A program made the translations under genes and the position numbers. A stretch of DNA of 64,000 nt, from positions 558,001 to 622,000 of the forward strand of contig NZ_JAFMZP010000001.1 of the NCBI RefSeq assembly GCF_024436435.1, given 5' to 3'. Numbering within the stretch: position 1 is the first letter of the stretch; each line of letters starts with the position of its first letter. Source of the DNA: Desertivirga xinjiangensis. Its GTDB lineage: Bacteria > Bacteroidota > Bacteroidia > Sphingobacteriales > Sphingobacteriaceae. Positions 5,707 through 31,820 of the stretch are shown here, one piece after another. The notes below the pieces were generated by a model. The model ran no database searches. It was not told where the DNA came from and saw nothing but the letters and a program-made list of their open reading frames with translations.

Positions 5707-5713
5707 CGCCTCT

Positions 5714-5833: not shown

Positions 5834-5844
5834 ATCAGTGTTTC

Positions 5845-6661: not shown

Positions 6662-6748
6662 GTTCTAATATCTCTAAAAAACACCATTAATCCCATGTTT
6701 TGTACAAGCGCTGGCATGGCATTCAACTTTATCTTTTAATAAAAAAAC

Positions 6749-7822: not shown

Positions 7823-7850
7823 AAGAATTTTATGGTTGATGTTTCCCTAA

Positions 7851-7878
7851 GGGAGTAGAGTTTTCTGCTCCCTTTTTT
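7851..7878 (+). terminator. Rho-independent terminator of serC
   Basis: GGGAGTAGA (7851-7859) pairs with TCTGCTCCC (7864-7872) through one G-U wobble, with a 4-base loop and six T residues following. It lies 29 bases after the serC stop. Confidence 0.85.
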
Positions 7879-8891: not shown

Positions 8892-8927
8892 TTTTCACTC
8901 AGATCCTTCATCCTTTTATCCTTTAAA

Positions 8928-11002: not shown

Positions 11003-11034
11003 GATATTGTTCACACTAATTAAATCCTGTTTTT

Positions 11035-11628: not shown

Positions 11629-11679
11629 AGCTGCGGTAATAAATCATTAGCAGCTATCTGTCTGCATAAGTATCAAGAG

Positions 11680-12945: not shown

Positions 12946-12973
12946 TTTGTACCCCTAATAATTTTCTGATTAT

Positions 12974-13939
12974 ATGTTGAGAGCTATAATAGATAAAGTA
13001 CTGTCAACGCAAAGCGTCAGGGATAAAGTAGCTATAGCTAATACACATTCAGCTCTTGGTAACCAGGTGAACTATCAGGATCCGCTGAGTATGATGCAGC
13101 ACACCATCGGGATAGGTGATGATTGTGCTGCTATCCCCGACGGCACAGGAGGCTTCCTTTTATTTGCGACCGAAGGCATTATTTCTGCTTTTGTGGAAGC
13201 TTCTCCCTGGTTTGCCGGATATTCTTCGGTAATGGTAAATATTAATGACGTATGTTCAATGGGTGGTCTTCCCTTAGCTGTAACCGATGTTCTTTGGCTG
13301 AAAGATGAGGAGGCGGGAAAGGAAATTTGGGAAGGTATGAAGGCTGCCTCAGACGCTTATGGCGTTCCTATAGTAGGCGGTCACACCTGTTACCGCTCTG
13401 AAAAAAGCCAGCTGGCTGTATCGATACTTGGAAAGGCGTCAAAGTTATTGCAGGACACAGCCGCCAAACCCGGTCAAATACTGATGATGGCAGTAGATCT
13501 TAAAGGAGATTATTATGGCGACTATCCCTTCTGGAATGCCTCTACCATGGCCGATCCTGCTTATCTAAAAGGAATCATGCGATTGATGTATGAGCTGCGG
13601 GAAAGGGATTGGTCTGAAGCGGCAAAGGACATTAGTATGGGAGGTATTATCGGTACGCTGGCTATGTTCCTTCAAAATTCTTCAGCAGGGGCTAGTGTAA
13701 ATTTGGAAGCTATCCCTTGTCCTACCGGAATTGAATGGGAAAAGTGGCTTATCAGTTTCCCAAGCTTCGGTTATCTTTTTACCTGTAGTAAGGAAAACTG
13801 CGGCGCGATTGAGGCTCATTTCCAATCTGCCGCCATTTCCTGCAAACCTATAGGTGAAATCAATGATTCAAGACATATCAGCATCATTAATAATAAAGAA
13901 CAAGTAGACATTAATTTAAATTTTGCATATTATGCCTGA
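12974..13939 (+). CDS. Sll0787-family AIR-synthase-like protein
   Basis: This 321-residue PurM/AIR-synthase-related protein has the ATP-phosphate-binding start IGIGDDCAAIPDG (about 46-58), then VNINDVCSMGG and VGGHTCYRSE, and a C-terminal half with AKDISMGGIIGTLAMFLQ. The fold uses ATP to activate an amide or carbonyl oxygen, as in PurM and SelD. In this cluster its substrate is unknown. The last 8 bases overlap the next gene if that gene starts at 13932, which implies coupled translation. Confidence 0.88.
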   Translation: MLRAIIDKVLSTQSVRDKVAIANTHSALGNQVNYQDPLSMMQHTIGIGDDCAAIPDGTGGFLLFATEGIISAFVEASPWFAGYSSVMVNINDVCSMGGLPLAVTDVLWLKDEEAGKEIWEGMKAASDAYGVPIVGGHTCYRSEKSQLAVSILGKASKLLQDTAAKPGQILMMAVDLKGDYYGDYPFWNASTMADPAYLKGIMRLMYELRERDWSEAAKDISMGGIIGTLAMFLQNSSAGASVNLEAIPCPTGIEWEKWLISFPSFGYLFTCSKENCGAIEAHFQSAAISCKPIGEINDSRHISIINNKEQVDINLNFAYYA

Positions 13940-15580: not shown

Positions 15581-16025
15581 TAAGGACGGCTGATGTTACT
15601 GTAACGTTGGCTAAAACTATCAAAGAATGGCCTTACTCCTGTCTTAAAATTTTTGAGGCAGAATGCCCTCTGTCGGATTTGCAGATACGACAGAAGCATC
15701 TATTAATTGCTGCCAACTTAGCTCGTATATTGGGGGGTGGGAAACCTCTTGTTCCTCAAGGTTTGCCTCTAATTCTCTCTGCTGGTAGTTATTTCAAAAA
15801 ATGAAAAAGGCTGTAAATAAGAAGTTTATAGGTCTTCTGCGTTTACGAAGAAAGACAGCTTATTCAATATTTTTCTTAAAAAAAGGTGAGCGTTTCAATG
15901 AGCAATATTTAATTTTAAAAATGCCCACCTAATTTGGTGTAAATTTGAGGGTTCAATAGGTTAGATGGTTTGATATCTTGATTTTCTCGGGCTGCAATGC
16001 GACATTTATTAATCTTAATAAGTGC
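15581..16025. other. Intergenic region, no gene recognised
   Basis: A 78-codon frame (15568-15804) overlaps the regulator's end. Its tail (LARILGGGKP) only faintly recalls outer-membrane efflux proteins, so I do not call it a gene. The stretch near 15880-15960 resembles the leader of an integrase gene and contains the promoter-like box at 15940. Nothing else is recognised. Confidence 0.4.
15940..15947 (+). promoter_or_regulatory. TAnnTTTG box ahead of the integrase remnant
   Basis: TAAATTTG is an exact match to the Bacteroidota -7 consensus, 78 bases before the ATG of the integrase remnant. No clear -33 TTTG is found at the right spacing. Confidence 0.35.
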
Positions 16026-16313
16026 ATGAAAACGAATTGCAGTATGCTTTCTTGTTTCAAAAAAAGAAGTAGTTACAAAAGTGGCCAAGTCTTAATCTAT
16101 CTGAGGATTACAATTGATGGTTGGGTGCAGAGTACTGTAGGATCTGATGTGACTGAGAGTCATGATTATCTTTCGGCTGCTAAAGAACCTCATGTTAAAG
16201 TTGTTTTCCTCCAGAGCCGTAAGAATAGCTAAATAAAGGCTCATATAGATCCTTTGAAGCCTGGTGTCATTGATGCACGCTTAATCGCGCGTGAATTTTT
16301 TCTTGTTGCTTAA
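16026..16313 (+). pseudogene. N-terminal remnant of a tyrosine site-specific recombinase
   Basis: From ATG 16026 the frame reads MKTNCSMLSCFKKRSSYKSG and QVLIYLRITIDG, the start of the arm-DNA-binding domain of Bacteroidota integrases. The following residues lose family likeness and stop at 16232. In another frame (about 16233-16313) a helical stretch, KAHIDPLKPGVIDARLIARE, resembles the next part of the same domain and ends at TAA 16311-16313. The SAM-like domain and the catalytic Arg-His-Arg-Tyr domain are entirely missing. This is the trace of an old integrated element. Confidence 0.7.
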
Positions 16314-16594
16314 CCATTTTTATCTTTAATATTAATACCTATATGCCATCGTTTAAAAGCTTTTATTTCATCCCTTGAGGAATAAATAACTCCTCCAATT
16401 TTTGCGTATATGAGCGTGCCAGCAATCCTTGAAATGCGCTATGTTGCGGGAAATCTTTAGCAAAGTCCCACTTCCTTGCTCTTAGCCTGCATGATCCATT
16501 GAACTGTTTTCTTGACTATGTTGTCTTATAATTCCAATAGTTCGAGTTTGAATAATTCAAGGTGTTTTTTAGTTAGTATTTCGTTTGCTTCCAT
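16310..16594 (-). pseudogene. Decayed helix-turn-helix (excisionase-like) gene
   Basis: Read leftward from ATG 16594 the sequence gives MEANEILTKKHLELFKLELL, a stop, then in shifting frames the family-like pieces VKKTVQWIMQAKSKEV, RISRIAGTLIYAKIGGVIY and SSRDEI. This is the pattern of short MerR-like HTH proteins carried beside integrases in Bacteroidota elements. At least three interruptions prevent expression. It ends where the integrase remnant ends, and a second remnant of the same family lies at 30.8-31.1 kb. Confidence 0.65.
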
Positions 16595-17137
16595 TGATTA
16601 AAGTTTCTTGATCACTAAAAAAGGAAGACCAGAGACCTTCTTTAGTTTTTTTCTGGTAGGCACCTCAAGATTTTGTTAAAAGAAATTAAGATATGGTAGT
16701 AGCGATTCCGTGCTTAATTATTGTCGAAAAATTAGGTTTCGGACTATAAGACCGAGTTGGCACTTAAATAAAGGCAAGCTACTAACAAATGTGTAATAAG
16801 AAGGCCTTGCAATTATTGGAACACTTAGTTTACAATTGATGTAGCTAAAGCCCTAGTTGAAAGTATAGGAATTATGTCGTTTAACATGCTATGTAAAATT
16901 CTTTAAAGATGAGTAACTTCTCCGTGCTCTTACTTCCTTTGTTAAAACAGTAACAAGAAGTCAAATTAAGTGAGTAGGGTTAATGTTGGCCGGCTCGGTA
17001 TTTCGAGGAGGTTAGTATGCAGATTTACGAATTAATCAATTTATCTAAGATATCCATAATAATTTGTTAAGATTATTTTAATATTTGAAAAGTTTTCATA
17101 CTTTAGTTTTAGTACTTCCTTCTTTTTAATATAGCTT
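16595..17137. other. Gene-free region upstream of the ECF sigma gene
   Basis: No open frame with a recognisable motif is seen. The interval 16595-16700 looks like leader DNA of the decayed HTH gene. The last 100 bases are AT-rich and should contain the promoter for the sigma gene. TACTTTAG near 17099-17106 matches TAnnTTTG with one mismatch. Confidence 0.35.
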
Positions 17138-17722
17138 TTGGCAGACTATAAAGTATATTCTGATGCTGACCTTACCGTGCTACTTAAAGCAGGCGACAGG
17201 CGGGCTTTTGCGGAGATTTACAATCGTTATAAGTTGATATTGCACAATCACGCCTGGAATAAAACACGTGATACCGTAGAAGCGCAGGATGCCATCCAGG
17301 AGGTTTTTTCAAATCTTTGGACCAAAAGAGAAGTGCTAGAAATAGGTAGTAACTTGTCGGGTTATCTTTACCGTGCGGTACGGAACCACATACTCAACCT
17401 CTTTGCAAGGAAACAATTGAAGGAGAAGTATATACAATCAATACAGCAATACACACAGCAGCGCGCGAATGTTACCGACCACAGGGTGCGCGAATCAATG
17501 CTGCGAGAGCTGATTGAAAAGGAAATATCCCAACTCCCTCCCAAGATGCGCGAGGTTTTCATATTAAGCCGCAGGCATCACCTCAGTCATAAAGAAATTG
17601 CTGAAATAATGGGTACAACCGAGCAGACAGTAAAGAAGCAGGTAGCCAATGCCCTGAAACACTTGCGAACTAAGCTTGGCCTTGTGTTATACCTGTATCT
17701 GCTTTGGACACTCAAACAATAA
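17138..17722 (+). CDS. ECF RNA polymerase sigma factor of the SusCD/FecR block
   Basis: This 194-residue factor has region 2 (AFAEIYNRYKLILHNHAWNK, EAQDAIQEVFSNLWTKRE) and region 4 (LPPKMREVFILSRRHHLSHK, EIAEIMGTTEQTVKKQVANA) of the Bacteroidota FecI-like type. A short hydrophobic tail (LGLVLYLYLL) at the C-terminus is frequent in this group. There is no in-frame ATG before region 2, so TTG 17138 is the best start and gives a normal length. It should be held by the FecR protein at 21078 and released when the STN-bearing SusC at 22301 binds its ligand (established for FecR/FecI systems, inferred here). Confidence 0.88.
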   Translation: MADYKVYSDADLTVLLKAGDRRAFAEIYNRYKLILHNHAWNKTRDTVEAQDAIQEVFSNLWTKREVLEIGSNLSGYLYRAVRNHILNLFARKQLKEKYIQSIQQYTQQRANVTDHRVRESMLRELIEKEISQLPPKMREVFILSRRHHLSHKEIAEIMGTTEQTVKKQVANALKHLRTKLGLVLYLYLLWTLKQ

Positions 17723-17810
17723 GCAACTCCCTGCTTAAATATTTTTTTAATTCGCAATACTCCCAGTCCTTTGCTGCATTGTCTTACAGTTAAATCACTG
17801 TTTAGATAAG

Positions 17811-18749
17811 TTGGAAAATAGCATCTTAAGGGCATCGCACCTGTCTCACAAATACAGTCGCGACTGGGCAATCAGGGATATCAATCTGGAAATAAATAAA
17901 GTCGGAGTTTTAGGTTTGCTTGGCTCAAACGGAGCAGGTAAATCAACTACCATGAACATTCTGTGTGGGGTGCTTAGTCAAACTGAAGGCAAGGTTTATA
18001 TTGATGGAATCGACTTGAGAAAGCATCCGGAAGAAGCGAAAACCCGTATAGGTTTCTTACCGCAAAATGCTCCGTTGCACCTCGACCTTACCGTTGGAGA
18101 ATACCTTACTTATTGCGCTTACCTGCGTAGCATAAGTAAGCGAAACATTAAAGACGCAGTTAATGCTGCAATGGAAAAGTGCGGACTGTCCCATTTCAAA
18201 TCGAGGGTGATAAATAACCTAAGCGGTGGCTATAGGCAACGGGTTGGGATTGCACAGAGCATTATTCATCAACCCAAGCTGGTGGTGCTTGATGAACCCA
18301 CAAACGGGCTCGATCCAAACCAGATCCTGGAAGTCCGGAAACTTATAAAGGAAATAGCGACCGAGAGGGCCGTGATATTCTCATCACACATACTTTCTGA
18401 AGTTCAGGCAACCTGCGACGAGGTACGTATGATAGAGGGTGGACGCATGGTGTTTGCTGATACTATGACGGCATTTAATAACTACATACTGCCCAACTCA
18501 CTACTGGTGTATATGGAAAACCCGCCTCCAATGGAAACATTGGCATCGATAAATGGCATTACGTCAATTGAACAGCTGGCCGATGGCGGTATACGTATGC
18601 ATTTCGACACCAGTACAAAGGTATCTTCAACAATTATTGAAATGGCAGTAAGCAACAATTGGCGACTCACGGAAATAATGCTCGAAAAGAGCAGCCTCGA
18701 CGAAATCTTTGCTCAATTATCTAATTATACCGCACAATCCTTAACATGA
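17811..18749 (+). CDS. ABC transporter ATP-binding protein (GldA-like)
   Basis: This 312-residue ABC ATPase has Walker A GSNGAGKST (38-46), signature NLSGGYRQR (about 138-146), Walker B LVVLDEPTNGLDP and the H loop FSSHILSE. It resembles GldA and related ATPases that energise ABC-2 permeases. TTG 17811 is the apparent start because no in-frame ATG precedes the first beta strand, the second TTG start in a row in this block. The gene lies 88 bases after the sigma gene and overlaps the permease gene by 4 bases (ATGA). An extra C-terminal domain of about 90 residues is usual for this type. Confidence 0.88.
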   Translation: MENSILRASHLSHKYSRDWAIRDINLEINKVGVLGLLGSNGAGKSTTMNILCGVLSQTEGKVYIDGIDLRKHPEEAKTRIGFLPQNAPLHLDLTVGEYLTYCAYLRSISKRNIKDAVNAAMEKCGLSHFKSRVINNLSGGYRQRVGIAQSIIHQPKLVVLDEPTNGLDPNQILEVRKLIKEIATERAVIFSSHILSEVQATCDEVRMIEGGRMVFADTMTAFNNYILPNSLLVYMENPPPMETLASINGITSIEQLADGGIRMHFDTSTKVSSTIIEMAVSNNWRLTEIMLEKSSLDEIFAQLSNYTAQSLT

Positions 18750-21022
18750 TAAAAATATTAAAAATAGCCAGGCTTGAACTTAGTATACTCTTTTATTCGC
18801 CTGTGGCCTGGCTTGTGCTTGTCGTTTTTATGGTGCAGGCGGGGACTGGGTTTTTTGGGATGCTGAGCAGTTTCCAGGAGCTTTTCATGATGGGCGAAAA
18901 GGTCGACAATTTAACACGCATGCTTTTTCCTGGCATTAACGGATTATTTGATAAGGTTCTGCAAACCCTTTACCTGTACATTCCGCTCCTAACCATGGGC
19001 CTGGTAAGCCGCGAACTTAGCAGCGGGTCGATAAAACTTCTGCTGTCATCGCCAGTAAAAATAACGGAGATAATACTTGGTAAGTATCTGGCCATGTTAT
19101 ATTACGTCTTGATGTTAATTGGCGTTTTAGGCATTTTTAGTTTACTTGGAGTCATCATTATCAAAAATGCCGATACAGGTCTGTTGCTGTCGGGATTATT
19201 AGCACTGTTCCTGCTTACGGCCACTTATGCTGCTATAGGGCTGTTTATGTCGAGCCTCACGCAATTCCAGGTAGTGGCGGCTATAAGTACGCTTGCTGTA
19301 TTTGCTGCGTTGAAGTTTGTTGGCGGTATAGGGCAAGGCGTTGATTTTGTGCGTGATATCACCTATTTCCTTTCGATATCAGGTCGCACTGAAAGTATGC
19401 TAAATGGTCTGATCTCTTCACGCGATGTATTGTATTATTTATTGCTTATCACCTTGTTCTTGGAGCTTACTATTTTATCCCTTAAGGCTGGGCGGGAAGC
19501 TTGGTCTTTACGCGTTCGCATTGCAAGGTATACCGCTTTAATAGCCCTTATACTTTTGTGTGGGTACCTTAGTTCAAGGCCTGGCAATATTCTCTACCGG
19601 GACGTTACATCCCTAAAGGCTGAAACCTTAACAGAGGCCAGTCAAGCTGTGGCAAAGGAAATAAATGGACCATTGCAAATAACCACCTATGTAAATCTAC
19701 TCGATCAACATGTGTACTCGGGCCTTCCTGTTTCAAGGAATACAGACCTGGCTCGCTTCGAAAGCTTTCGCAGGTTCATTCCCGATATACAAATGGACTA
19801 TGTTTACTATTACGATGCTACCGACCTGGCCAATAATCCAAACATGATTTACCAGGGGGATATAAAAGGCCTTACCATAAAGCAGGTTGCGGAAAAGGTG
19901 GCCGGAAACATACAGGTTAACCTGAATAGTTTTTTAACGCCCGGGCAGATAAGGAAAAAAATCGACCTTAAGCCAGAAGACAACACTTTTGTGCGGCAAC
20001 TGAGTTATCAGGGCAGGAACAGTTTCTTAAGGCTTTATAATGAAAATAATCAGTTTCCTGAAGAAGCCGAAATAACTGCAGCAATAAAGAAACTGGTATC
20101 TCCCTCACAAAAAGTAACTTTTATATATGGAGACAACGAGCGAAGTATTAACGTAAAGGCCGATAGAAGTTACCGATTGTTCGCTAATGACCGTAAAACG
20201 CGTAAGTCACTTATAAACCAGGGTTTTGATGTTTTGCCCGCGAATTTAAACAAGGATGACGTCCCGGCAGGAACCACTGTACTGGTGTTGGCAGATCCTG
20301 CAAAGCAGCTGACTGCGAAAGCAATTGAACGAATACAACAATACCTAAGTGGGGGTGGCGATATGTTGATAACGGCAGAACCCGGGCATCGCGATATCAT
20401 AAATCCTTTGCTTAAGCACTTAGGAGTGAGCCTTGCAGAGGGAATGATGGTAAGTGCAGATAAAAGAAGTACACCTGAACTTATTCAGGCTAGATTTAAA
20501 AGGAAAGAGATTCCTTACTTTCAGCAGATGACTCGTCCAAATGCCAGCGTAGCAATGCCGACGGCAGCTATGCTTGAAGTATCTAAAACTGAATTTAAAG
20601 TTGACACATTAGTTCAGAGTGAGCCGGGCGGCTGGAATAAAAAACAGGGCTTCGACCCATCGTCGGCAACGGTTACTTATTCGCGGCAGCAGGGGGATGA
20701 TAAAGGTAGCAAACCACTCATGGTGGCCCTTACTCGAGCTCGTGGCAACCATCAACAAAAAATACTGGTAAGTGGTGATGCCGATTTTATGAGCGACAAT
20801 CTAGTGGGCTCAGCCTACAACTTTACATTTATAAATAGCATATTTAGGTGGTACAGTAAAGGACTATTCCCTGTTGATGTAAGTCGCCCACCAGCACTTG
20901 ACGATGCATTGTTGGTTAATCGCCCCCAATTATCAATTTACCGTGTGGCCAACTTATGGGGAATACCGCTTCTAATAATTATTGCAGGAGCTGTACTTTT
21001 AATAAGCAGAAAAAGAAAATAA
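18746..21022 (+). CDS. GldF-GldG-like fused ABC permease
   Basis: This 758-residue protein joins two parts that are separate in gliding bacteria. Residues 1 to about 250 are an ABC-2 permease with six hydrophobic segments (LELSILFYSPVAWLVLVVF first, ELSSGSIKLLLSSPV after the second). A further membrane segment near 255-275 leads into a large extracytoplasmic region (about 280-725) with the GldG/DUF4350 pattern TVLVLADPAKQLTAKAIERI, YLSGGGDMLITAEPG and ILVSGDADFMSD. A last membrane helix (LLIIIAGAVLLISRKRK) ends it. GldA, GldF and GldG are known in gliding motility of Flavobacterium; here the block has no other gliding gene, so export of another substrate is more likely. Confidence 0.85.
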   Translation: MIKILKIARLELSILFYSPVAWLVLVVFMVQAGTGFFGMLSSFQELFMMGEKVDNLTRMLFPGINGLFDKVLQTLYLYIPLLTMGLVSRELSSGSIKLLLSSPVKITEIILGKYLAMLYYVLMLIGVLGIFSLLGVIIIKNADTGLLLSGLLALFLLTATYAAIGLFMSSLTQFQVVAAISTLAVFAALKFVGGIGQGVDFVRDITYFLSISGRTESMLNGLISSRDVLYYLLLITLFLELTILSLKAGREAWSLRVRIARYTALIALILLCGYLSSRPGNILYRDVTSLKAETLTEASQAVAKEINGPLQITTYVNLLDQHVYSGLPVSRNTDLARFESFRRFIPDIQMDYVYYYDATDLANNPNMIYQGDIKGLTIKQVAEKVAGNIQVNLNSFLTPGQIRKKIDLKPEDNTFVRQLSYQGRNSFLRLYNENNQFPEEAEITAAIKKLVSPSQKVTFIYGDNERSINVKADRSYRLFANDRKTRKSLINQGFDVLPANLNKDDVPAGTTVLVLADPAKQLTAKAIERIQQYLSGGGDMLITAEPGHRDIINPLLKHLGVSLAEGMMVSADKRSTPELIQARFKRKEIPYFQQMTRPNASVAMPTAAMLEVSKTEFKVDTLVQSEPGGWNKKQGFDPSSATVTYSRQQGDDKGSKPLMVALTRARGNHQQKILVSGDADFMSDNLVGSAYNFTFINSIFRWYSKGLFPVDVSRPPALDDALLVNRPQLSIYRVANLWGIPLLIIIAGAVLLISRKRK

Positions 21023-21077
21023 AAAAACGGATACCTCCTGCATAGGTAATTAATTGTCTTACGTATATATCAAGGTT

Positions 21078-22178
21078 ATGAGTGAACTGAACGATCAGGA
21101 AATCAAACGCATACTGGAAAATTACCGACTTGGAACGGCAACAGATGAGGAAAAGGCATTGCTGGAGTCGTGGTATCTAACCTATACAGAAGAAGGTACT
21201 GATGATCCCGAACTGGCCGAGCGCTTTGCCGCCGTTGATAACGTTTGGATGAAGCTCGAAAACGAATACCGCCCGGTTAAAAAAATGTGGAAGTGGACAT
21301 CTTTTGCCGCAGCTGCTCTTATCGTGCTGGTTGCTGGCAGTTACTTTTTATGGCGACCACAACCGGTTAGCGTAAGTGAACTTGCTAAGACATCCAAGGA
21401 TATAGCTCCGGGATACAATAAGGCTACGTTAACCATTGATGGTGTGGGTATATTATCCCTCGATTCATCAAGTGCAGGCATTGTGGTAAAGTCGACTTCA
21501 GTTATTTACGATAACAACAGAACAGTAAAAGGTACTGATGCTTTGATCAAAAATCCGGGCATGCTAACCTTAACTACACCTAAGGGCGGTACTTATAAAC
21601 TAGCCTTGCCCGATGGTTCTGTAGTATGGCTTAATGCGGCCTCGAAGCTTGTATTTTCATCGGTTTTCCATAAACAGAAACAGCGAGTGGTTGAGCTGGA
21701 AGGAGAAGGGTATTTCGAGGTTGCGAAAAATAAACAGCAACCCTTTATTGTAAAAAGTAAAGGCCAGCAGGTTGAAGTATTAGGCACTCATTTCAATATA
21801 AACAGTTATTCGGATGAGCCATTAACCAAAACTACCTTACTTGAGGGCAGCATTCGTATTAGCAATAAGATATTAAAACCCGGAGAGCAGGCACAAAATA
21901 CAGGGAAAAGCCTCGTTGTGCATGAGGTTGACACGGCAGGTGTGGTAGGCTGGAAAAATAATTACATTGTTTTTGAAGATGAAAGCATACAAGGCGTTAT
22001 GCGAAAAATAAGCCGCTGGTACGATGTCGATATTACTTACGAGGGGGAGTTGCCTGTGGATGACTTCGGCGGCCGGATAAACAGACAGGCCTATGTATCC
22101 CAGGTGCTTAGAAAATTGGAGTTAACAAATAAGGTGCACTTTAAAGTTGCAGGAAGGAGGATAATCGTAACGAAATAA
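21078..22178 (+). CDS. FecR-family anti-sigma factor
   Basis: The protein has 366 residues from ATG 21078; a TTG at 21054 would add eight residues without family likeness. The cytoplasmic N-terminus holds the sigma (IKRILENYRLGTATDEEKAL), a single membrane helix follows (about 76-95, WTSFAAAALIVLVAGSYFLW), then the FecR domain (LTTPKGGTYKLALPDGSVVW, NAASKLVFSS, VELEGEGYFEVAKNKQQPF, FNINSYSD) and a DUF4974-type end (YDVDITYEGELPVDDFGGRI). It should transmit the state of the outer-membrane SusC to the sigma factor. Having two ABC genes between the sigma and the FecR genes is unusual; they normally adjoin. Confidence 0.9.
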   Translation: MSELNDQEIKRILENYRLGTATDEEKALLESWYLTYTEEGTDDPELAERFAAVDNVWMKLENEYRPVKKMWKWTSFAAAALIVLVAGSYFLWRPQPVSVSELAKTSKDIAPGYNKATLTIDGVGILSLDSSSAGIVVKSTSVIYDNNRTVKGTDALIKNPGMLTLTTPKGGTYKLALPDGSVVWLNAASKLVFSSVFHKQKQRVVELEGEGYFEVAKNKQQPFIVKSKGQQVEVLGTHFNINSYSDEPLTKTTLLEGSIRISNKILKPGEQAQNTGKSLVVHEVDTAGVVGWKNNYIVFEDESIQGVMRKISRWYDVDITYEGELPVDDFGGRINRQAYVSQVLRKLELTNKVHFKVAGRRIIVTK

Positions 22179-22212
22179 ACTATACCTACTCTTCGATATG
22201 CCTTAATAAAAA

Positions 22213-22241
22213 GGCCAGTAGTGGTTGCAACACAACTGGCC
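22213..22241 (+). promoter_or_regulatory. Hairpin in the FecR-SusC intergenic leader
   Basis: GGCCAGT (22213-22219) pairs with ACTGGCC (22235-22241), with GTG/CAC extending the stem, 60 bases before the SusC start. No T-run follows on the plus strand, so it is not a plain terminator. It may mark an RNA processing or attenuation site, or a regulator site. Confidence 0.4.
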
Positions 22242-22300
22242 AATGTCAGGCATGGTCAATAAAATTCCTGTTTGTATCAACTTTTTACCAGACTTAACAA

Positions 22301-25300
22301 ATGTATAAAATTTATACTATCAAATCCGGCGTGCCCTATACACCCGTTCATAAAGTGTTGCTGATTATGCGATTGACGATATTTATAATGTTTATTATGC
22401 TGTTCCGGGTGTCCGGGGCAACCTTGGCCCAAAGTATTTCGCTAAACGAGAAGAACGTTCCGATAAAAGTTATTATCACCAAAATTCAGCAGCAAAGCAA
22501 TTATGATTTCGTGTATACTGCCCAGCAGCTTAAAAGCATCGGTAAGGTGAGTATTTCCGTGAAATCGGCCAATATTCGTACCGTGCTTAATCTGGTTTTT
22601 AAAGACCAGCCACTTACTTATACAATCGATGACAATACGATAGTATTAAAAGAAAAAATAGCTGCGACCTCTGCGGTACCTATCAATTTTATTGATGTAA
22701 GCGGAAACGTGTCAACCAGTTTGGGTGCAGGGTTACCGGGTGCTACAGTGAGACTTTTGGGTACGCAGATAAGGGTAGCTACAGACCAGGCCGGTAACTA
22801 TAAGATGTTGCGTGTTCCTGATGATGGTAAATTGATTTTCTCGTACATTGGTTATCGCACTGATACCATTTCCATTACCGGGCAGACAACAATAAACGTG
22901 GTCCTTAAGGAGGTTGTATCAGAAATGGGGCCGGTCTCCATCGTATCAACAGGTTTACAGGACTTGCCTAAGGAACGTGCCACAGGTTCGTTCGAAGTGA
23001 TCAGCAAGGTACAACTTCTGCATAGTACAGACCCCAACCTTGTCAGGCGTTTGGAAGGTATCACCACGTCGCTTGATTTCAGAAATGACCTTCGCCCCAA
23101 TAATTCAGCTTCGCCAAATGCAAGGCAATCGCCTTTGGCAAACCTCACCATCAGGGGGAAAAATACATTGAATGATGCTATGACTGCTGACCTTAATGGC
23201 AATTATAGCGGACAGGTACTTGTTGTAATTGATGGTATTGCCAGTCCATATTCAATTGATAAGGTTAACCCAAATGATGTTGAATCGGTAACCATATTGA
23301 AAGACGCAGCAGCTGCTTCTATTTGGGGATCGAGAGCGGCAAATGGCGTTATTGTCATCAAAACAAAACGTGGGAGCTACAATCATGCACCCCGCATCAC
23401 CTTTAATAGTAATGCTAATCTTACTGAGAAGGTCGACTTGTTTTACAACAAAACCATGAGTGTGTCCGACTTTATCGATGCGCAGGCAACTTACTTTGAA
23501 AGTCAGAAGCGACCGCTGGCCGACTTAAGTATCACGCACTTGTATGGCCAGGAGATAAAGTCACCAGTGGCAGAGATCATTAACGCCTGGAAATTTAAAG
23601 GTACGCTTACAGACGACGAAGCTAATAGGCAATTAGACGTTTTAAGAAATAACGACATCAGGCAAGATTATGAAAAGTATTTTCTGCGCAACGCGGTCAC
23701 CCAAAGCTACTCACTAGCTCTGGATGGAGGTTCGGATAAGTTTAATTACCGTGTTTCTGGTGGTTTGGATAAGGGTCTTAACAATACTGAAAATTCTGAT
23801 TACAATCGTTTAGCCATAGGTTACTCCATGTCAATAAAGCCTTTAAGCCGCCTTGAGTTGCAGGGTAATATCAGCTATAATGTGCAAAAAAATAATGAAC
23901 AGGCGCCACTTAACCGAATAACCGGCGCTACCGACGCTACCTTTTACCCATATAGCCGCCTGGTAGATGATAATGGAAGCCACCTGGAACTTGCGAAGAT
24001 GTACAGGCAAGGCTTTGCAGCGGCGGTAGCTGAGGCTTACGGGAGTAATTTTTTAAGTTACAGTTACGTGCCGTTAGACGATATTAATGAAGGCTATAAC
24101 AAGCTGAAATCACAGAACCTAAACCTGAATTTTAGCGCTAATTACAAAGTGCTTCATAGCCTTTCGGCACAATTCACCTACAACTACAACACTGGCCGCA
24201 ACAATGATAATACCCTGTACAGTCAAAACTCATTTTACATGCGGAACATGATGAATTATTTCACTACCTCGCCAGTGTCTGTAAACCCAATGACCTATGA
24301 TCCGGTTCCAGCCTACAACAGGCAACTTCCGCTTGGCGGGCAATACACTACCTTGCTTACCAACAGTAATAATCACACCCTACGTGGGCAGTTGAATTTT
24401 GAGCATGCCTGGAACGAAAAGCACGAGGTATCGGCTATTGCAGGTTTGGATGTAGCACAATCATACAGTATAGCTAAAACTGATGGCTTTTATGGGTACA
24501 ATGAGTCAACGCTTTCCAGCAATAATAAGCTGGACTATAAAACAATGATTCCAATAGCTTTTGCGGAAGATTTCAGCGGTTACAACGGAGAGTATATACC
24601 CAATCTTTCAACAGGCTTTATTGACAATAAAGTACGAACCTTTAGCTATTACACTAATGCCGCCTATACATACGACAGGCGATATACTTTGTCTGCCAGC
24701 TTGCGTAAGGATCTATCGAGCGAGTTTGGCCGGGGTACCAACCAGAATGGTACGCCTTATTACTCAGTGGGCGCTGCCTGGAACATTAACAACGAAAGCT
24801 TTTATAATTGGGATTTACTGCAGTCATTAATTTTCAGGGCAACTTATGGTTTCAATGGCAACGTTAATCCGTCAATAATTGCACGCCCATTAATTACATA
24901 TTCAATTTTTAACGGGACCAATAATCTTCCTTATGCATACACCAGCTTTGGTACAGGAATTAGTAACAGTCAACTTCGTCCTGAACGTACAGGCGTAATG
25001 AACGTAGGACTTGATTTTGTTTTCAAGAAGAACAGGCTGTCGGGCAACGTACAGTATTACAATAAGAAAACAACCGACCTTGTTGCTGGGGGCGCTCTCG
25101 ACCCAAGTACCGGTTATACCAATATCACGTATAACACAGGTAATTTGAAAGGTCAAGGAGTAGAGTTTACCTTAAACTCATTAAACCTTGAACTGAACAA
25201 ACTCAGGTGGAACAGCAACTTTCTGTTCGCTTACAATAAGGTAAAGGTAACAAAGCTGTATGCAACTGCTACCAGTCAAGCAGGGGCAGCAGTAAATAAC

Positions 25301-25990
25301 AGCTCAGGATCTTACAATGAAGGTTATGACTTGTCGCGTCTGTTTGGTTATGAATGGGCTGGACTTGACCCTCAAACCGGCGACCCTCGCGGTTATGTTG
25401 ATGGAAATATTGTTACTATATCAAACAACTCTCAGGGCGAAGAAAACTATCGGGCTATACAAAATGCACCAATAGGCACACTCAAATACTTTGGTAGCGC
25501 GGTACCTGTGTACTATGGTTCTTTGAGAAATACATTCTCTTATGGTTCGGTTGCGATATCTGCCAACCTGCTCTATAAGTTTGATTACTTTGTTCGCAGG
25601 CCAACCTCGCAAGTGGTGAATTACAGTTCGCTTAACTCTGGAAACTCGCTGCAGGGAATCGAATACAATGACAGATGGCAGAAACCCGGCGACGAGGTCA
25701 GTACCAACGTACCTTCAAAGGTTGCGTCAACCAATTTCATGAACCGTGATAATTTCTATTACTACTCTGCAGTGAACGTTATTAAGGGTGACCATATCAG
25801 GTTGCAGGAGATCAACTTGTCATACACGCTTAGGGTAGGCCCTCAAAGCCGCATTAAACAACCTAGGTTCTATACTAACATAAGTAATCTAGGGATTGTA
25901 TGGCGCGCTAATGATAAAGGTATCGACCCGGAAGTGTTCGATTATCCATTGCCACGTACTTATAGTTTAGGTTTTTCAGCTAACTTTTAA
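22301..25990 (+). CDS. SusC/RagA-family TonB-dependent transporter with STN signalling domain
   Basis: The 1229-residue outer-membrane protein starts with a signal segment (LLIMRLTIFIMFIMLFRVSG, ATLAQ). An STN domain follows (about 47-120, VPIKVIITKIQQQSNYDFVY), then a carboxypeptidase-like regulatory domain (about 130-210), the plug with DGIASPYSIDKVNPNDVES and VTILKDAAAASIWGSRAANG, and a beta-barrel ending FSANF with an aromatic last residue. The STN domain is the part that contacts FecR, supporting surface signalling with the upstream sigma/FecR pair. SusC-type pores take up oligosaccharides or, as in RagA, peptides; the M16 peptidase downstream favours a peptide (inference). Confidence 0.92.
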   Translation: MYKIYTIKSGVPYTPVHKVLLIMRLTIFIMFIMLFRVSGATLAQSISLNEKNVPIKVIITKIQQQSNYDFVYTAQQLKSIGKVSISVKSANIRTVLNLVFKDQPLTYTIDDNTIVLKEKIAATSAVPINFIDVSGNVSTSLGAGLPGATVRLLGTQIRVATDQAGNYKMLRVPDDGKLIFSYIGYRTDTISITGQTTINVVLKEVVSEMGPVSIVSTGLQDLPKERATGSFEVISKVQLLHSTDPNLVRRLEGITTSLDFRNDLRPNNSASPNARQSPLANLTIRGKNTLNDAMTADLNGNYSGQVLVVIDGIASPYSIDKVNPNDVESVTILKDAAAASIWGSRAANGVIVIKTKRGSYNHAPRITFNSNANLTEKVDLFYNKTMSVSDFIDAQATYFESQKRPLADLSITHLYGQEIKSPVAEIINAWKFKGTLTDDEANRQLDVLRNNDIRQDYEKYFLRNAVTQSYSLALDGGSDKFNYRVSGGLDKGLNNTENSDYNRLAIGYSMSIKPLSRLELQGNISYNVQKNNEQAPLNRITGATDATFYPYSRLVDDNGSHLELAKMYRQGFAAAVAEAYGSNFLSYSYVPLDDINEGYNKLKSQNLNLNFSANYKVLHSLSAQFTYNYNTGRNNDNTLYSQNSFYMRNMMNYFTTSPVSVNPMTYDPVPAYNRQLPLGGQYTTLLTNSNNHTLRGQLNFEHAWNEKHEVSAIAGLDVAQSYSIAKTDGFYGYNESTLSSNNKLDYKTMIPIAFAEDFSGYNGEYIPNLSTGFIDNKVRTFSYYTNAAYTYDRRYTLSASLRKDLSSEFGRGTNQNGTPYYSVGAAWNINNESFYNWDLLQSLIFRATYGFNGNVNPSIIARPLITYSIFNGTNNLPYAYTSFGTGISNSQLRPERTGVMNVGLDFVFKKNRLSGNVQYYNKKTTDLVAGGALDPSTGYTNITYNTGNLKGQGVEFTLNSLNLELNKLRWNSNFLFAYNKVKVTKLYATATSQAGAAVNNSSGSYNEGYDLSRLFGYEWAGLDPQTGDPRGYVDGNIVTISNNSQGEENYRAIQNAPIGTLKYFGSAVPVYYGSLRNTFSYGSVAISANLLYKFDYFVRRPTSQVVNYSSLNSGNSLQGIEYNDRWQKPGDEVSTNVPSKVASTNFMNRDNFYYYSAVNVIKGDHIRLQEINLSYTLRVGPQSRIKQPRFYTNISNLGIVWRANDKGIDPEVFDYPLPRTYSLGFSANF

Positions 25991-26002
25991 TCTCCCGGAG
26001 TC

Positions 26003-27400
26003 ATGAAAAAAATTATAAAAAATATACTTGCACTTGTTTTCATTGTTGCCCTGAGCTCTTGCCAAAAGTTTGTAGATATCAAGAAAAGCGGTTCTCAATC
26101 ATTTATAGAAACAACCGACGATTGTCAGCTCATCCTGGATAATTACGATCTGTTCAATATTAATTATCCCTTGGATGGAGAAATTTCGGGCGACGATTAT
26201 TACATGGATGATACGCGTTATAATGCCGATGTGATCACTTCTGAAGATAAGGCCCTGTACACCTGGCAGGCTACTGCAATGCGTTCCAGCGCTACTCAAT
26301 GGGTTTCGTCATACAATAAAATATACCACTGCAATCTGGTGCTTGAGGCGCTTGATGAACTAAATGGTACCGGTAACGAAACTGTACTAAACAATCTGCG
26401 AGGCACTGCCTTGTTCCTAAGGGCTTATGCTTTGTGGCCGCTTGCACAATTGTATATCAAGCCTTATGATGCAAACAACCTGGAGGAACCAGGTTTGCCT
26501 ATCCATACCAAATCAGACATTAATGATGTTCCTGGCCGTGGCACTGTTCAGGAAACTTACGCTGCTATTGTAGACGACCTTACCCGGGCGGCAGTATTAT
26601 TAAACCATACATCCAGCATTTCGTCAAGGCCGAATAAAGCGGCTGCCTATGCCATGCTGGCAAGGGTTTATATTTCAATGGAAGATTATCCAAAAGCGCT
26701 AGCAACTGCTGATGCCGCTTTGGCTATAAAAAAGGACCTGATCGATTACAATACGCTGAACTTGGGAAGCTATAACCCCTTTCAGCGTTTTAATAAGGAA
26801 GTAATATTTCACTCGGTTATTCTTCAGCAGAATAGCGTACTTGAGGTTGGTTATGGTGATGAGGATAAGGCGCTTATTGCCACGGATATTGTTAAAGCTT
26901 ATCAACCAGACGACTTGCGCAAGCAGGTGCTGGTTAAAGAAAATCTGGATGTACCCCAGCCATCAGGTACTTACCGTTTTGTAGGTAACTATGAAGGTGC
27001 TGTTGGTTCATCGGTACTGTTTAATGGTCTGGCCGTCGACGAATTGTATCTGATAAGGGCAGAGTGTTATGCCCGCTCTGGCCAAACCGCCAGCGCAGTT
27101 GCTGATATGAATACCCTGCTTGCCACTCGTTTTGCTACCGGTACTTATGCAGGGTTTAACGCAGTCAATGCTGAAGATGCCCTTAGAAAGATATTAGTCG
27201 AACGCCGCAAGCAATTGTTAATGCGTGGTTTGCGATGGACCGACCTCAGGAGGTTAAACAAAGACCCCCGGTTCGCAACAGATATTTCCCGTACCATTAA
27301 CGGTACTACATACACTCTGCCAGCAAACGACTCCCGGTATACACTGCTTATACCGCAGGAAGTTATCACCAACTCAAAACTACAGCAAAATACACGCTAA
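26003..27400 (+). CDS. SusD/RagB-family outer-membrane lipoprotein
   Basis: This 465-residue protein has a lipobox ending at Cys20 (ALSSCQ). SusD features include the TPR-like segment LRGTALFLRAYALWPLAQLY, AYAMLARVYISMEDYPKAL and the C-terminal LVERRKQLLMRGLRWTDLRR. It is the surface lid that captures the ligand for the SusC pore encoded 12 bases upstream. It contains no carbohydrate enzyme domain. Transcription after it meets a terminator-like hairpin before the peptidase gene. Confidence 0.92.
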   Translation: MKKIIKNILALVFIVALSSCQKFVDIKKSGSQSFIETTDDCQLILDNYDLFNINYPLDGEISGDDYYMDDTRYNADVITSEDKALYTWQATAMRSSATQWVSSYNKIYHCNLVLEALDELNGTGNETVLNNLRGTALFLRAYALWPLAQLYIKPYDANNLEEPGLPIHTKSDINDVPGRGTVQETYAAIVDDLTRAAVLLNHTSSISSRPNKAAAYAMLARVYISMEDYPKALATADAALAIKKDLIDYNTLNLGSYNPFQRFNKEVIFHSVILQQNSVLEVGYGDEDKALIATDIVKAYQPDDLRKQVLVKENLDVPQPSGTYRFVGNYEGAVGSSVLFNGLAVDELYLIRAECYARSGQTASAVADMNTLLATRFATGTYAGFNAVNAEDALRKILVERRKQLLMRGLRWTDLRRLNKDPRFATDISRTINGTTYTLPANDSRYTLLIPQEVITNSKLQQNTR

Positions 27401-27414
27401 CTTTTATTTATTCA

Positions 27415-27453
27415 AACCACTGGCCGCAAATAATGCGGCAAGTGGTTTTATTT
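27415..27453 (+). terminator. Terminator-like hairpin between SusD and the M16 peptidase
   Basis: AACCACTGGCCGCA (27415-27428) pairs with TGCGGCAAGTGGTT (27434-27447), with one mismatch and a 5-base loop, followed by TTTATTTA. It lies 15 bases after the SusD stop and ends shortly before the peptidase ATG at 27464. It may lower expression of the peptidase relative to SusC and SusD. Confidence 0.7.
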
Positions 27454-27463
27454 ACTATGTTTT

Positions 27464-30250
27464 ATGCTTAAAAATATCATAGGAGCTTTTCTGCTATGCT
27501 TTACCGTGGCTTTTGCAACAGCGCAAGACAGGCTAATTCCGCTGGATACCGCCGTCCATACCGGTCAACTTAAGAACGGATTTACCTATTATATCAGGTA
27601 TAATAATACTCCGAAAAAAAGGGCTCAGTTTTATTTAGTGAACAAGGTGGGTTCGGTTTTGGAGGATGATAATCAGCGAGGCCTGGCTCATTTTGTTGAG
27701 CATATGACGTTTAATGGTTCAAAAAACTTTCCGAAGAACACGATGATGGATTACCTGCAAAAGGCAGGCGTCCGTTTTGGTGCCGATGTCAATGCCTATA
27801 CCGGTTATGACGAAACAGTATACCAGTTGCCACTACCTACTGATGATAAAGCCCTTGTAAAAAATGGTTTATTAATCGTTCGGGATTGGGCGCAGAACGC
27901 TACTCTCGATGCCCGTGAGATCGATATCGAACGCGGTGTAATACTTGAAGAGAAACGCCTGGGCAAAGGTGCGTCCGATAGGCTGCAACAACAATATTAC
28001 CCGCTGTTGCTTAATCATTCACGCTATGCAGAGCGTAACCCAATAGGTACCGACGAGGTATTAAAAAACTTCAAGCCCCAGGTGATACGTAAGTTTTATA
28101 ACGATTGGTACCGCCCCAATTTACAGGCTCTGATAATTGTTGGCGATATCGACGTAGCAGCTATTGAACAGCAGGTAAAAGCCCTGTTTTCCGATCTTAA
28201 AAATCCTGTTAGACAACGGTCCCGGAATGATTATACTATACCGTTAACCGATAAAAACCAATTTATAGCCTTAACCGATAAAGAAATAACAAATACGGTT
28301 GCCGAAGTAATTATAAAGCACAAAGCAACACCGTTAACTACGGCGGAAGATTACCGGAGGCTTTTGACAAAGCAACTATTTAACAATATGCTTGACGACA
28401 GGTTCAAACGGCTCTCTCGTACTCAGCCACCATTTATATCAGCTAATGCTGGAATAAAAGATTTTTTTGGAAGTTTGGATACCTACCGGACGACGGTAGT
28501 CTGCAAGCCCGGTATGCTAAAGCAAGGATTTATGGCTTTGTGGTATGAATACGAACGCATAAAAGCGCATGGTTTTAGCTCTCCGGAATTGGAACAGGCA
28601 AAAAGCATTCTTTTACAACATCTTGAGAATGTTTACCGCGAACGGAATAACAATCCTTCAGAAAGTTATGTGCAGGAATATATCGCCCATTTTTTACGAA
28701 GCGAAGCGGCGCCAGGCATTGAAGGGGAGTACAGGTTAATGAAAGAATATCTGCCCTTGGTTAATCAGGAAGATATCCGAAAGGTAATACTCGAATATCT
28801 TGGCGATAAAAACCGTGACATTATAATTAACGCACCGTTTAACTCCGCTGAAGCCTTACCTAATAACGAGCAGGTTGAACAATGGATAACTGAAGTGAAG
28901 GCCATGCAAATGCAGGCCTTTGAAGAACAAACAACTTTATCATCATTATTAACAATGCAACCCATTGCCGGTAAGATCACGACTGAGCAGTATGACGCTA
29001 AGGGGGGCATAACCACTCTTAAATTATCAAATGGAGTGAAAATAGTTATTAAGCCAACGGATTTTAAAAGCAATCAGATAATATTTAAAAGTTTTGCAGC
29101 GGGTGGAACATCTTTGTATGCAGATGCTGATTATCCGTCGGCCGCAAATGCGGCTTCAATAATAGCTGCAGCAGGCGTAGGTAATTTAACTGCTGCTGAG
29201 CTTGACCGCTTTGTGGCTGACAAACAAGTGGAAGTACGGCCTTACATAGCAGAAAGATATCAGGGTATAACTGGCGGCAGCTCTGTCCACGATTTTAATG
29301 TCGCCATGCAACTGATACACGCTTACATTACCCAGCCGCAAAAAGATCCTCTTCTCTATAACAGTATAATGGAACGCTCAAAGGCGCGCTATGTTAATCG
29401 CGCTAATGATCCTGGTGCTGATTTTAATGATACGGTTAGCGCAGTGTTGGGAAATTATACTTTCCGCCGTACAGGGCCATCGCTTAAAAAACTTGATATG
29501 GTAAATCTTGACAAGGTTTTCAATATCTATAAAGAACGTTTTACTAATGCGGCTAATATGGTTTTCGTATTCACAGGCAATATTGATGTAAAAGCAGCAA
29601 AACCTTTGTTTGAAAAATATCTTGGTTCGCTGCCTTCAACCTCTAAGACGGAAAACGCCCGTGATTTGATTATCGATCCGCCAGCAGGCGAAATAGCCAA
29701 AATGGTTAAAAAAGGTAGAGAAGCTAAAGCCACGGTCGTTATGATGTATTCCGGCAAGTATGATTTTAATAGCCGGAACAATATCGTGTTTGATGCCCTG
29801 CAGGAAAATTTAAATATCCGGCTAATAGAAACACTACGAGAAAAGGAAGGCGGCGTTTATAGTCCCCGGGTTGATTACAGTGTTGCTAAATATCCTGCCC
29901 AAAGGTTCTCGTTAACAGTCCAGTTCAGTTGCGATCCGGCGAATGCGGAAAAGCTGGCCGCATCTGCACGAGCAGAAGTACACCGGCTATCAACTGAAGG
30001 ACCAGAAGCAGAAAACATCAGCAAATGGAAGGTGGAATGGTATCGGCAGCGCGAACTTGAACTGCGCGAGAATAACTGGTGGCTGAACTACATAACAGGG
30101 CAATTGCAGTTAGGTGAAGATCTCAACGAGTATGCAGCTGATAAAAAAATAGTAGATGCTGTTGATGCAGTAGCTATAAGAAATATTGCAAGGCAGTGTC
30201 TTATGAATGGTAATCTTATAAAATTCACACTAATGCCCGAAGCTCATTAA
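27464..30250 (+). CDS. M16-family zinc metallopeptidase (insulinase/PqqL-like)
   Basis: The 928-residue protein has a signal peptide (cut near residue 20, FATAQ), which places it in the periplasm or outer membrane. The inverted zinc motif HFVEH is at 76-80, with the third ligand expected in IERGVILEEK (about 155-164). The second, inactive-type half starts about residue 520. The long double-unit layout is that of PqqL and other periplasmic M16 peptidases, which cut peptides small enough to enter their chamber. In this operon it would degrade or trim the peptide imported by SusCD (inference). A terminator follows 62 bases after the stop. Confidence 0.9.
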   Translation: MLKNIIGAFLLCFTVAFATAQDRLIPLDTAVHTGQLKNGFTYYIRYNNTPKKRAQFYLVNKVGSVLEDDNQRGLAHFVEHMTFNGSKNFPKNTMMDYLQKAGVRFGADVNAYTGYDETVYQLPLPTDDKALVKNGLLIVRDWAQNATLDAREIDIERGVILEEKRLGKGASDRLQQQYYPLLLNHSRYAERNPIGTDEVLKNFKPQVIRKFYNDWYRPNLQALIIVGDIDVAAIEQQVKALFSDLKNPVRQRSRNDYTIPLTDKNQFIALTDKEITNTVAEVIIKHKATPLTTAEDYRRLLTKQLFNNMLDDRFKRLSRTQPPFISANAGIKDFFGSLDTYRTTVVCKPGMLKQGFMALWYEYERIKAHGFSSPELEQAKSILLQHLENVYRERNNNPSESYVQEYIAHFLRSEAAPGIEGEYRLMKEYLPLVNQEDIRKVILEYLGDKNRDIIINAPFNSAEALPNNEQVEQWITEVKAMQMQAFEEQTTLSSLLTMQPIAGKITTEQYDAKGGITTLKLSNGVKIVIKPTDFKSNQIIFKSFAAGGTSLYADADYPSAANAASIIAAAGVGNLTAAELDRFVADKQVEVRPYIAERYQGITGGSSVHDFNVAMQLIHAYITQPQKDPLLYNSIMERSKARYVNRANDPGADFNDTVSAVLGNYTFRRTGPSLKKLDMVNLDKVFNIYKERFTNAANMVFVFTGNIDVKAAKPLFEKYLGSLPSTSKTENARDLIIDPPAGEIAKMVKKGREAKATVVMMYSGKYDFNSRNNIVFDALQENLNIRLIETLREKEGGVYSPRVDYSVAKYPAQRFSLTVQFSCDPANAEKLAASARAEVHRLSTEGPEAENISKWKVEWYRQRELELRENNWWLNYITGQLQLGEDLNEYAADKKIVDAVDAVAIRNIARQCLMNGNLIKFTLMPEAH

Positions 30251-30312
30251 ATACTCTGCTGTTGAGTAATGACAACTTTTTATTTTGCTAAAACAAGAAA
30301 TATTTACTCCGG

Positions 30313-30342
30313 CGCTTTCCAGAAAATGGAAAGCGTTTTTTT
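30313..30342 (+). terminator. Rho-independent terminator after the M16 peptidase
   Basis: CGCTTTCCA (30313-30321) and TGGAAAGCG (30327-30335) form a perfect 9-bp stem with a 5-base loop and seven following T residues. It closes the block that started at 17138. Confidence 0.9.
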
Positions 30343-30829
30343 ATCCTGATAGAAAGCTTTTGTGGCGGCAATACTGGAACGTAAACGCGAACTCTTGCTT
30401 AACCTAAGTTAGGATACAAGTTTCGCTTTATTTACTGCTTATTTCAATAAGGTTGCTGGATTAAGCCCATTGATCTGATATTTTTGGAACCTTATATCTA
30501 AGGTGAATGCACACTTCACAATAGTCTGTCTGAGAGTTTTTTATCCGATGCTGCACTCCGATATAGAAATAGAAGCTTTGTTAAGCGGAAAAAAATACCT
30601 GTAAAGAAAAGTATTCTCCCGGTTAGACTATTCTCGGAGAATACTTTTAGGAGTAGTATAGGCGGTTGTTCTGCTCAAAACTGGTACTGAGGCCAACGAT
30701 ATTCACCTTGAAGGGCTAGGGCATAAAAAATGACAGTAGCGCGTTTGTTGACCAGCTAAATGAGGCATGCATCTAGAGAGTTTAAAGAGAATCTATCTAA
30801 TTGATTATAATCCATTGCTTAAAGGTCCA
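30343..30829. other. Gene-free region with a long hairpin
   Basis: No gene is convincing. A perfect 13-bp inverted repeat (30607-30619 with 30636-30648, arms AAAAGTATTCTCC and GGAGAATACTTTT) resembles a terminator or the end of a lost gene. The stretch 30700-30770 has a short peptide-like tract (KNDSSAFVDQLNEAC) in one frame without family assignment. Confidence 0.4.
30607..30648. repeat. 13-bp inverted repeat, orphan terminator-like hairpin
   Basis: AAAAGTATTCTCC and its reverse complement are separated by 16 bases. T-rich arm ends could terminate transcription in either direction, yet no intact gene ends here. Confidence 0.45.
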
Positions 30830-31075
30830 TCATCTCATCCTTTGAGTAATAAATCACTTCGCCAATCTTATTGAATTTGATAGTGCTGCTAATATTTAGG
30901 CTTGGGAGGGTTCCGGGACAGATTTTCGTATAGTGCCTACTCCTTTATTTCAAAGCATTCAAGAGTCCTAAGATTCTCTATCTGATTTTTGTCGTATACA
31001 CTCGAAAAGCTCCTGTTTCAATAGTTGGAGATCGTTTTCAGTTAATCTGCTTCGATTTTATTAAAGTTTTTTCAT
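30830..31075 (-). pseudogene. Second decayed helix-turn-helix (excisionase-like) gene
   Basis: Read leftward from ATG 31075, broken frames give NRSRLTENDLQLLKQELFEC and IRQKSD, then in another frame NSIRLAK-like, KIGEVIYYSKDEMMDL-like pieces. The order and motifs match the short HTH proteins of mobile elements and the remnant at 16310-16594, though the two copies differ. Several stops and shifts rule out function. Confidence 0.6.
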
Positions 31076-31346
31076 TGCTACGAAAGGGCCAAGTTTGCCG
31101 TTATCTGCTGCCTTTCTGGTAGACACCCGGAAGATTTTTTAAAAGCGCGATGGATAAAAAGGAACTCATGAGCCATTAATGTCACAAAGTTAGGCTGAAG
31201 GCTGCTGAAGCGGGCAAAAGCGTCCGGCATAAACCCTCATTCCCACCTGCTCCTGTGTCCATTTATTCCTTTTCCTTTTGCCCTTGATCGCCCTCAGCCT
31301 GCTGATGCGCCATAATTAATTCATTCATCACTTAAAAAATCTAATT

Positions 31347-31820
31347 ATGAAAAAGCTTCAGAATCAATTGGCAATGTTTCAGGTTTCAGAAATTAAAGTT
31401 ATTTATCAGCCAAAGATAAAGGCTTCAGAAAGATTTTCGGTAAGCTGTTCGAGAGATGTATTTAACGTTTTTCGTCAAAGTTGGGATATGAACAGAATTC
31501 AGTTAGTGGAACAGTTCAAGATCCTGTTATTAAACAGAGCTAATAAAGTGCTTGGAATTTATGAGGTATCTTCAGGTGGTATGGCAGGCACAGTAGCTGA
31601 TCCTAAGTTGATCTTTGCAGCTGCCTTGAAGGGATATGCCGCAGGAATTATTCTGGCCCATAATCATCCTTCAGGAAACCTTAAACCGAGTCAGGCTGAT
31701 ATTAATCTTACCTGTAAGATTAAAGAAGGAGCGATGCTGCTTGATATAGCCGTTCTAGACCATATTATACTTTCTCCTGAGGATTCTTATTATTCATTTG
31801 CAGATGAGGGGCTTTTATAG
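31347..31820 (+). CDS. JAB/RadC-like domain protein of mobile-element type
   Basis: This 157-residue protein has the JAMM metal motif HNHPSGNLKPSQAD (about 112-125), preceded by LLLNRANKVLGIYEVSSGGM and GTVADPKLIFAAAL. It is a RadC-domain protein without the N-terminal helix-hairpin-helix of chromosomal RadC, the form commonly found on Bacteroidota integrative elements. Its molecular function is unproven; a metalloprotease-like or nuclease-linked role has been proposed for the family. It is intact although its surroundings are decayed. No partner genes remain nearby, apart from a hypothetical protein on the other strand. Confidence 0.85.
   Translation: MKKLQNQLAMFQVSEIKVIYQPKIKASERFSVSCSRDVFNVFRQSWDMNRIQLVEQFKILLLNRANKVLGIYEVSSGGMAGTVADPKLIFAAALKGYAAGIILAHNHPSGNLKPSQADINLTCKIKEGAMLLDIAVLDHIILSPEDSYYSFADEGLL

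Follow-up and report, generated by a model that had tools for sequence, protein, structure and literature searches.

The locus examined here raises the question of why two ABC transporter genes should lie between an ECF sigma factor gene and a fecR gene, and what they do beside the SusC/SusD pair and M16 peptidase that follow. It is in a 64 000 nucleotide stretch of the Desertivirga xinjiangensis genome (the window; contig C11). The initial annotation regarded the position of the ABC pair as abnormal and read the seven genes as a closed circuit, perhaps for a peptide. SusCD pairs are numerous in the Bacteroidota and most have no assigned substrate.

Organization of the seven genes

All seven ORFs are intact, open, and co-directional between window positions 17138 and 30250 on the forward strand, with mostly small gaps, as first described. 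The first encodes an ECF sigma factor of the Sig70_bacteroi1 subfamily (17138..17722, TTG start; TIGR02985, 137.9 bits, exceeding the cut-off of 126.4). After 88 bp comes a GldA/DrrA-like ABC ATPase gene (17811..18749, TTG start; PF00005), with intact Walker A (38–45), LSGG (137), and Walker B (157) motifs. It overlaps by 4 bp a gene (18746..21022) for a single 758 aa chain, here GldFG, in which Pfam and NCBIfam matches and hydrophobic segments show a GldF-type ABC-2 permease (PF12679), a GldG-type extracytoplasmic ABC_transp_aux part (PF09822), and a last membrane helix. A FecR anti-sigma regulator with one membrane helix (21054..22178; FecR and FecR_C, PF04773 and PF16344) is encoded 31 bp further on, the ATG at 21078 being its probable start.

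After a gap of 122 bp, susC (22301..25990; TIGR04056, 484.9 bits, exceeding the cut-off of 368.25) encodes STN (PF07660, residues 68–117), carboxypeptidase-regulatory (PF13715), and plug (PF07715) domains. Next, after 12 bp, is the gene for a SusD/RagB lipoprotein with its lipobox cysteine at residue 20 (26003..27400; SusD-like_3, PF14322, and SusD_RagB, PF07980) and, after 63 bp, that for a double-unit M16 peptidase with a signal peptide (27464..30250; PF00675 and two copies of PF05193), in which the HFVEH motif (76–80) and the downstream Glu152/Glu156 are intact. The hydrophobic N-termini of SusC, SusD, and M16 are likewise intact. An intrinsic terminator of 11 pairs followed by a T run (30311..30337, forward strand), 61 bp 3′ of the M16 gene, closes the block.

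With a sigma factor, FecR, an STN-bearing SusC, and a SusD lipoprotein at a single locus, this is an ECF/FecR-regulated SusCD system. Pfam recognized no CAZyme among the seven genes, and the block is therefore not classed as a polysaccharide utilization locus. Promoter-like sigma-70 sites were no more frequent than expected by chance (35 found, 33.2 expected), candidate ECF promoter boxes picked out by eye 5′ of susC are set aside, and PADLOC returned generic ATPase matches only.

Conservation and linkage in the Bacteroidota

Long relatives of the fused GldFG are present in approximately 95 of 400 Sphingobacteriaceae genomes (E below 1e-90, counted by eye) and, in a phylum-wide sample, in 11 of 395 genomes (E ≤ 1e-60). 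Scanning GTDB species gave 391 relatives; Flavobacterium, Chitinophaga, Niastella, Gillisia, Butyricimonas, and Bacteroides are represented among the best 80. Neighbourhoods were annotated for 60 loci from the family sample and 80 named loci and, with duplicates removed, there were 124 distinct loci, including that in the window.

SusC and SusD are encoded in the same operon at 123 of these 124 loci, the exception (L075) ending with its sequence stretch. The other partners are the ATPase (120 loci), FecR (108), the sigma factor (90), M16 (76), and MutS-like proteins (43); these counts describe the GldFG subfamily, since the loci were chosen as best GldFG matches, and some absences are due to stretch ends or to the simple ORF caller, two ATPases overlooked by it having been recovered by eye. 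Pairwise divergence of GldFG tracks that of the ATPase (r = 0.92), M16 (0.86), SusC (0.85), the sigma factor and MutS-like proteins (both 0.81), and SusD and FecR (both 0.80), and with permuted labels r was never above 0.18. Shared species history contributes to these values, which therefore show that the genes travel as a unit, not that the proteins are in physical contact. The gene set is thus widespread, conserved, and inherited as a unit in the Bacteroidota, as had been proposed for its parts. It is apparently undescribed; no account of SusCD with GldFG, M16, and MutS was found in the open full-text literature.

Co-occurrence on this scale, across several families, excludes a chance neighbourhood. 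It equally contradicts relocation of gliding-motility ABC genes to a site where they have no functional tie to SusCD, an explanation of negligible probability even though no NCBIfam models match the two proteins better than GldA and GldF. The ATPase scores 271.3 bits against the GldA model (cut-off 402.6) and GldFG scores 87.7 bits against the GldF model (cut-off 288.5), and canonical gldA, gldF, and gldG are present separately on contig C21. The pair is therefore not the gliding transporter, with which it shares the ATPase, the GldF permease, and the GldG domain but from which it differs in the fusion of GldF with GldG and in the tie to SusCD. The poorly understood GldA/GldFG fold thereby gains a second context, outside gliding.

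Gene order and its history

The commonest order is sigma–FecR–SusC–SusD–ATPase–GldFG–M16 (32 of the 124 loci), followed by the same order with two MutS-like genes replacing or preceding M16. The order in the window, sigma–ATPase–GldFG–FecR–SusC–SusD–(M16), is seen at 17 distinct loci in Mucilaginibacter, Pedobacter, and Chitinophaga; it therefore recurs in several genera, and the condition that the initial annotation named as refuting, absence of ABC genes from this position in all relatives, does not hold. A maximum-likelihood tree of GldFG places the 17 loci and one of the common order (L105) in one group (SH-aLRT 99), which is nested among common-order loci. The initial annotation is right that the ABC pair lies inside the sigma–FecR pair, but this position is best read, from the tree, as a derived reordering of a common set, the pair following SusD in most relatives; that it is the essential feature is not supported. 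Separate ABC-first arrangements are found in Butyricimonas (L173) and in a Bacteroides metagenome-assembled genome (L180).

M16 is present at eight of the 17 window-order loci and absent from the other nine, and from 48 of the 124 overall, although some loci may be incomplete in the fetched stretch. The peptidase is optional in the gene set rather than a constant member, and a need for it in the closed circuit is not supported. MutS-like ATPases, paired or fused and approximately 445 aa each, are encoded in the SusCD–ABC operon at 43 of the 124 loci (L044–L091, L125–L178) and at none of the window-order loci. They carry MutS domains III and V and also resemble KamC (reactivase ATPase). MutS-type ATPases tied to a membrane uptake operon were not found described in the open full texts searched.

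Among the best 80 of the 391 relatives, the closest partners of the window are in M. pankratovii, M. rigui, and Chitinophaga ginsengisegetis, at 70–72 % identity. Since C. ginsengisegetis belongs to another family, its 70 % identical copy suggests transfer between families. The block is absent from the two genomes of the same genus that were sampled, and no syntenic empty site was found in relatives by means of the flanking genes.

Mucilaginibacter limnophilus has a seemingly decayed window-order copy beside an intact common-order locus (L081 / L174). The decayed copy retains a GldFG fragment 91 % identical to that of the window, together with the sigma factor, the ATPase, and a truncated M16.

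The ABC transporter and possible antimicrobial-peptide immunity

Sequence comparison matches the GldG segment to IFT52 (E 0.00024), and fold comparison matches it to IFT52, OST48, and ThuA-like proteins; it is therefore a GIFT-type domain. Because the overall quality of the AlphaFold model of GldFG is poor (pLDDT 59), fold matches are taken from the better-scored soluble domain alone.

ABC-2 transporters are usually exporters. The ATPase also matches the DrrA model (197 bits) and the lantibiotic-protection ATPase model (170.6 bits, cut-off 309.75), in both cases far under the curated cut-off. The exporter habit and these sub-threshold matches make antimicrobial-peptide sensing or immunity the main rival to an uptake function: SusCD would detect or take in a membrane-active peptide or bacteriocin, M16 would degrade it in the periplasm, and a DrrA/GldFG-type exporter would clear it from the inner membrane, like LanFEG or BcrAB. 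This accords with the ABC pair accompanying SusCD more constantly than any other partner while the peptidase is optional, and with the patchy distribution just described. SusCD would, however, carry the toxin inward, and no peptide-antibiotic biosynthesis gene was recognized among the neighbouring genes examined. Immunity is thus a possible but rather unlikely function.

M16, SusCD, and the nature of the substrate

The best solved relatives of the M16 protein are the peptidase 9ldy (525 bits), PqqL (236 bits), and FusC (149 bits), with far lower scores for protease III (31 bits) and insulin-degrading enzyme (28 bits). By similarity scores rather than by a tree, it is a putative FusC/PqqL-type protease encoded with a receptor. 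FusC cuts ferredoxin that a TonB-dependent transporter has taken in, and its counterpart in Escherichia coli is PqqL; both act with TonB-dependent transporters in protein import (PMC6793856, PMC6071955).

Among solved structures, the one nearest to both SusC and SusD, the latter by fold match to ButD, is the complex of ButCD and the small protein BfUbb (PDB 8YPT, as given in the PDB title). BfUbb is presumably a B. fragilis toxin, in which case this kinship would also suit immunity. ButCD is only distantly related, the ButC orthologue in this genome being a different SusC (C11:900894, 26 % identical to that of the window) among at least 56. At ButC-like loci (L255–L259) a large gene is directly upstream of susC in five out of five, encoding a DUF4953/DUF5117 met-zincin in the four out of four tested, and a protein-binding SusCD is therefore itself protease-associated.

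A few loci that lack M16 encode a peptidase of the S41, trypsin-like, or met-zincin kind after SusD or the ABC genes. Several other genes found after GldFG are ordinary flanking genes (histidine kinases, glycogen synthesis, GH92), so replacement of the peptidase is claimed for these few loci only. A second sigma–FecR–SusC–SusD–M16 operon in the same genome has no ABC genes (contig C4; L196, C4:112000-131000, 1033-11131), and the link to a protease is therefore not dependent on the ABC pair.

Taken together, the kinship of M16, the kinship with ButCD, and the other peptidases in a few operons point to a polypeptide substrate, and the gene set probably handles peptides or small proteins. The peptide idea, which initially drew on the peptidase and the RagAB precedent, thus gains evidence beyond RagAB. 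Counting against peptide import are the frequent absence of M16, the distance of ButCD, the glycan substrates of most known SusCD pairs, and the resemblance of the GIFT domain to the carbohydrate-linked OST48 and ThuA.

A further alternative is uptake of a glycan, glycopeptide, or other small molecule, in which the GIFT domain would recognize a glycan-bearing compound and M16 would trim its peptide part or be a passenger. Most characterized SusCD pairs import glycans, and a dispensable M16 and an OST48- and ThuA-like GldG part would fit. The lack of a CAZyme in the block and the recurrent linkage to peptidases make glycan uptake improbable.

Comparison with known systems

The Fus (FusABCD) and Ydd/PqqL systems encode an inner-membrane transporter together with a TonB-dependent receptor and an M16 protease of the FusC/PqqL type, as the block does (PMC6793856, PMC6071955). 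The block differs in having SusC and SusD in place of FusA, an ABC-2 transporter whose fused GldFG chain includes a GIFT domain, and sigma/FecR signalling; its relatives often have MutS-like ATPases, and it is found in Bacteroidota, whereas the systems of the paper are from Proteobacteria. FusA and SusC are kept apart in the description of Fus. The receptor here is of the SusC/RagA type by its TIGR04056 match and there is no FusA-family transporter, and the block is therefore not a member of Fus.

RagAB, which carries peptides, and other FecR/ECF-regulated SusCD systems share the SusC/SusD pair with STN, the FecR, and the ECF sigma factor; the block adds a dedicated ABC-2 pair and M16, and its sequences are only distantly related to RagAB. 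ButCD orthologues likewise adjoin a metalloprotease gene, but they are of a different SusC lineage with a met-zincin instead of M16, and the orthologue in this genome (L255) has no neighbouring ABC, sigma, or FecR genes.

Proposed function

The block is best read, by analogy, as a Bacteroidota counterpart of protease-associated import. With a probability a little better than even, it is a substrate-induced operon by which a peptide or small protein is brought through the outer membrane and processed. The substrate would be caught by SusD and imported by SusC using TonB. As in known FecR/STN systems, the STN domain of SusC would, on binding substrate, signal through FecR, freeing the sigma factor and raising expression. 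M16, where present, would cut the imported chain in the periplasm, as FusC does with ferredoxin. At the inner membrane, the GldA/GldFG transporter may act, via its GIFT domain, on the substrate or its fragments, or else on parts of the envelope that these disturb; the usual exporter role of ABC-2 transporters fits uptake poorly.

The observations of the initial annotation are thus confirmed and its interpretation is partly supported. The near-invariant ABC link of one SusCD subgroup, often with proteases, marks loci at which uptake of proteins or peptides is likely; few SusCD pairs of this class have been characterized.

A covarying element between fecR and susC

The gap between fecR and susC contains a two-stem element (22194..22257, forward strand; model R1, 71.2 bits), a possible susC mRNA leader on the basis of its covariation and its context in relatives. 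Its tip is near-invariant (GTG-loop-CAC). Across 15 sequences, both sides of a pair had changed in 17 cells, compared to 6.2 in shuffles, none of 500 shuffles reached 17, and sliding the pairing abolished the signal. In 26 matches there were 41 such cells against 14.9, in an alignment fitted to the model, with one antisense hit among the matches. No Rfam family reached the gathering threshold in the window. Whole-gap folding energy in FecR–SusC gaps is not below that of the remaining co-directional gaps (P = 0.21), and the RNA claim is therefore limited to the covarying element.

The model matches in 57 of 151 genomes of the family. All 30 fetched loci are in FecR–SusC gaps when strands are considered, with one or two antisense matches of the palindrome-like element, and a second copy in this genome (C11:117413-117480; L200) is upstream of another FecR-linked susC. 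The element is therefore not specific to the block. A phylum-wide SusCD–ABC system, in which imported polypeptides would be handled by a dedicated GIFT-domain ABC-2 transporter, interchangeable proteases, and, at about one-third of loci, pairs of MutS-like remodelling ATPases, with a structured RNA susC leader in some lineages, is a tentative and somewhat doubtful extension.

Flanking regions

On both sides of the block (window 15600-17100 and 30340-31340) there are long stretches without convincing genes, which are possibly traces of insertion, as is possibly a RadC-domain gene after the block (31347-31820). Further upstream, at 8409-13939, nitrilase, radical SAM, acetyltransferase-like, flavoprotein, and AIR-synthase-like genes are in a row, which we take to resemble the known Nit1 cluster.
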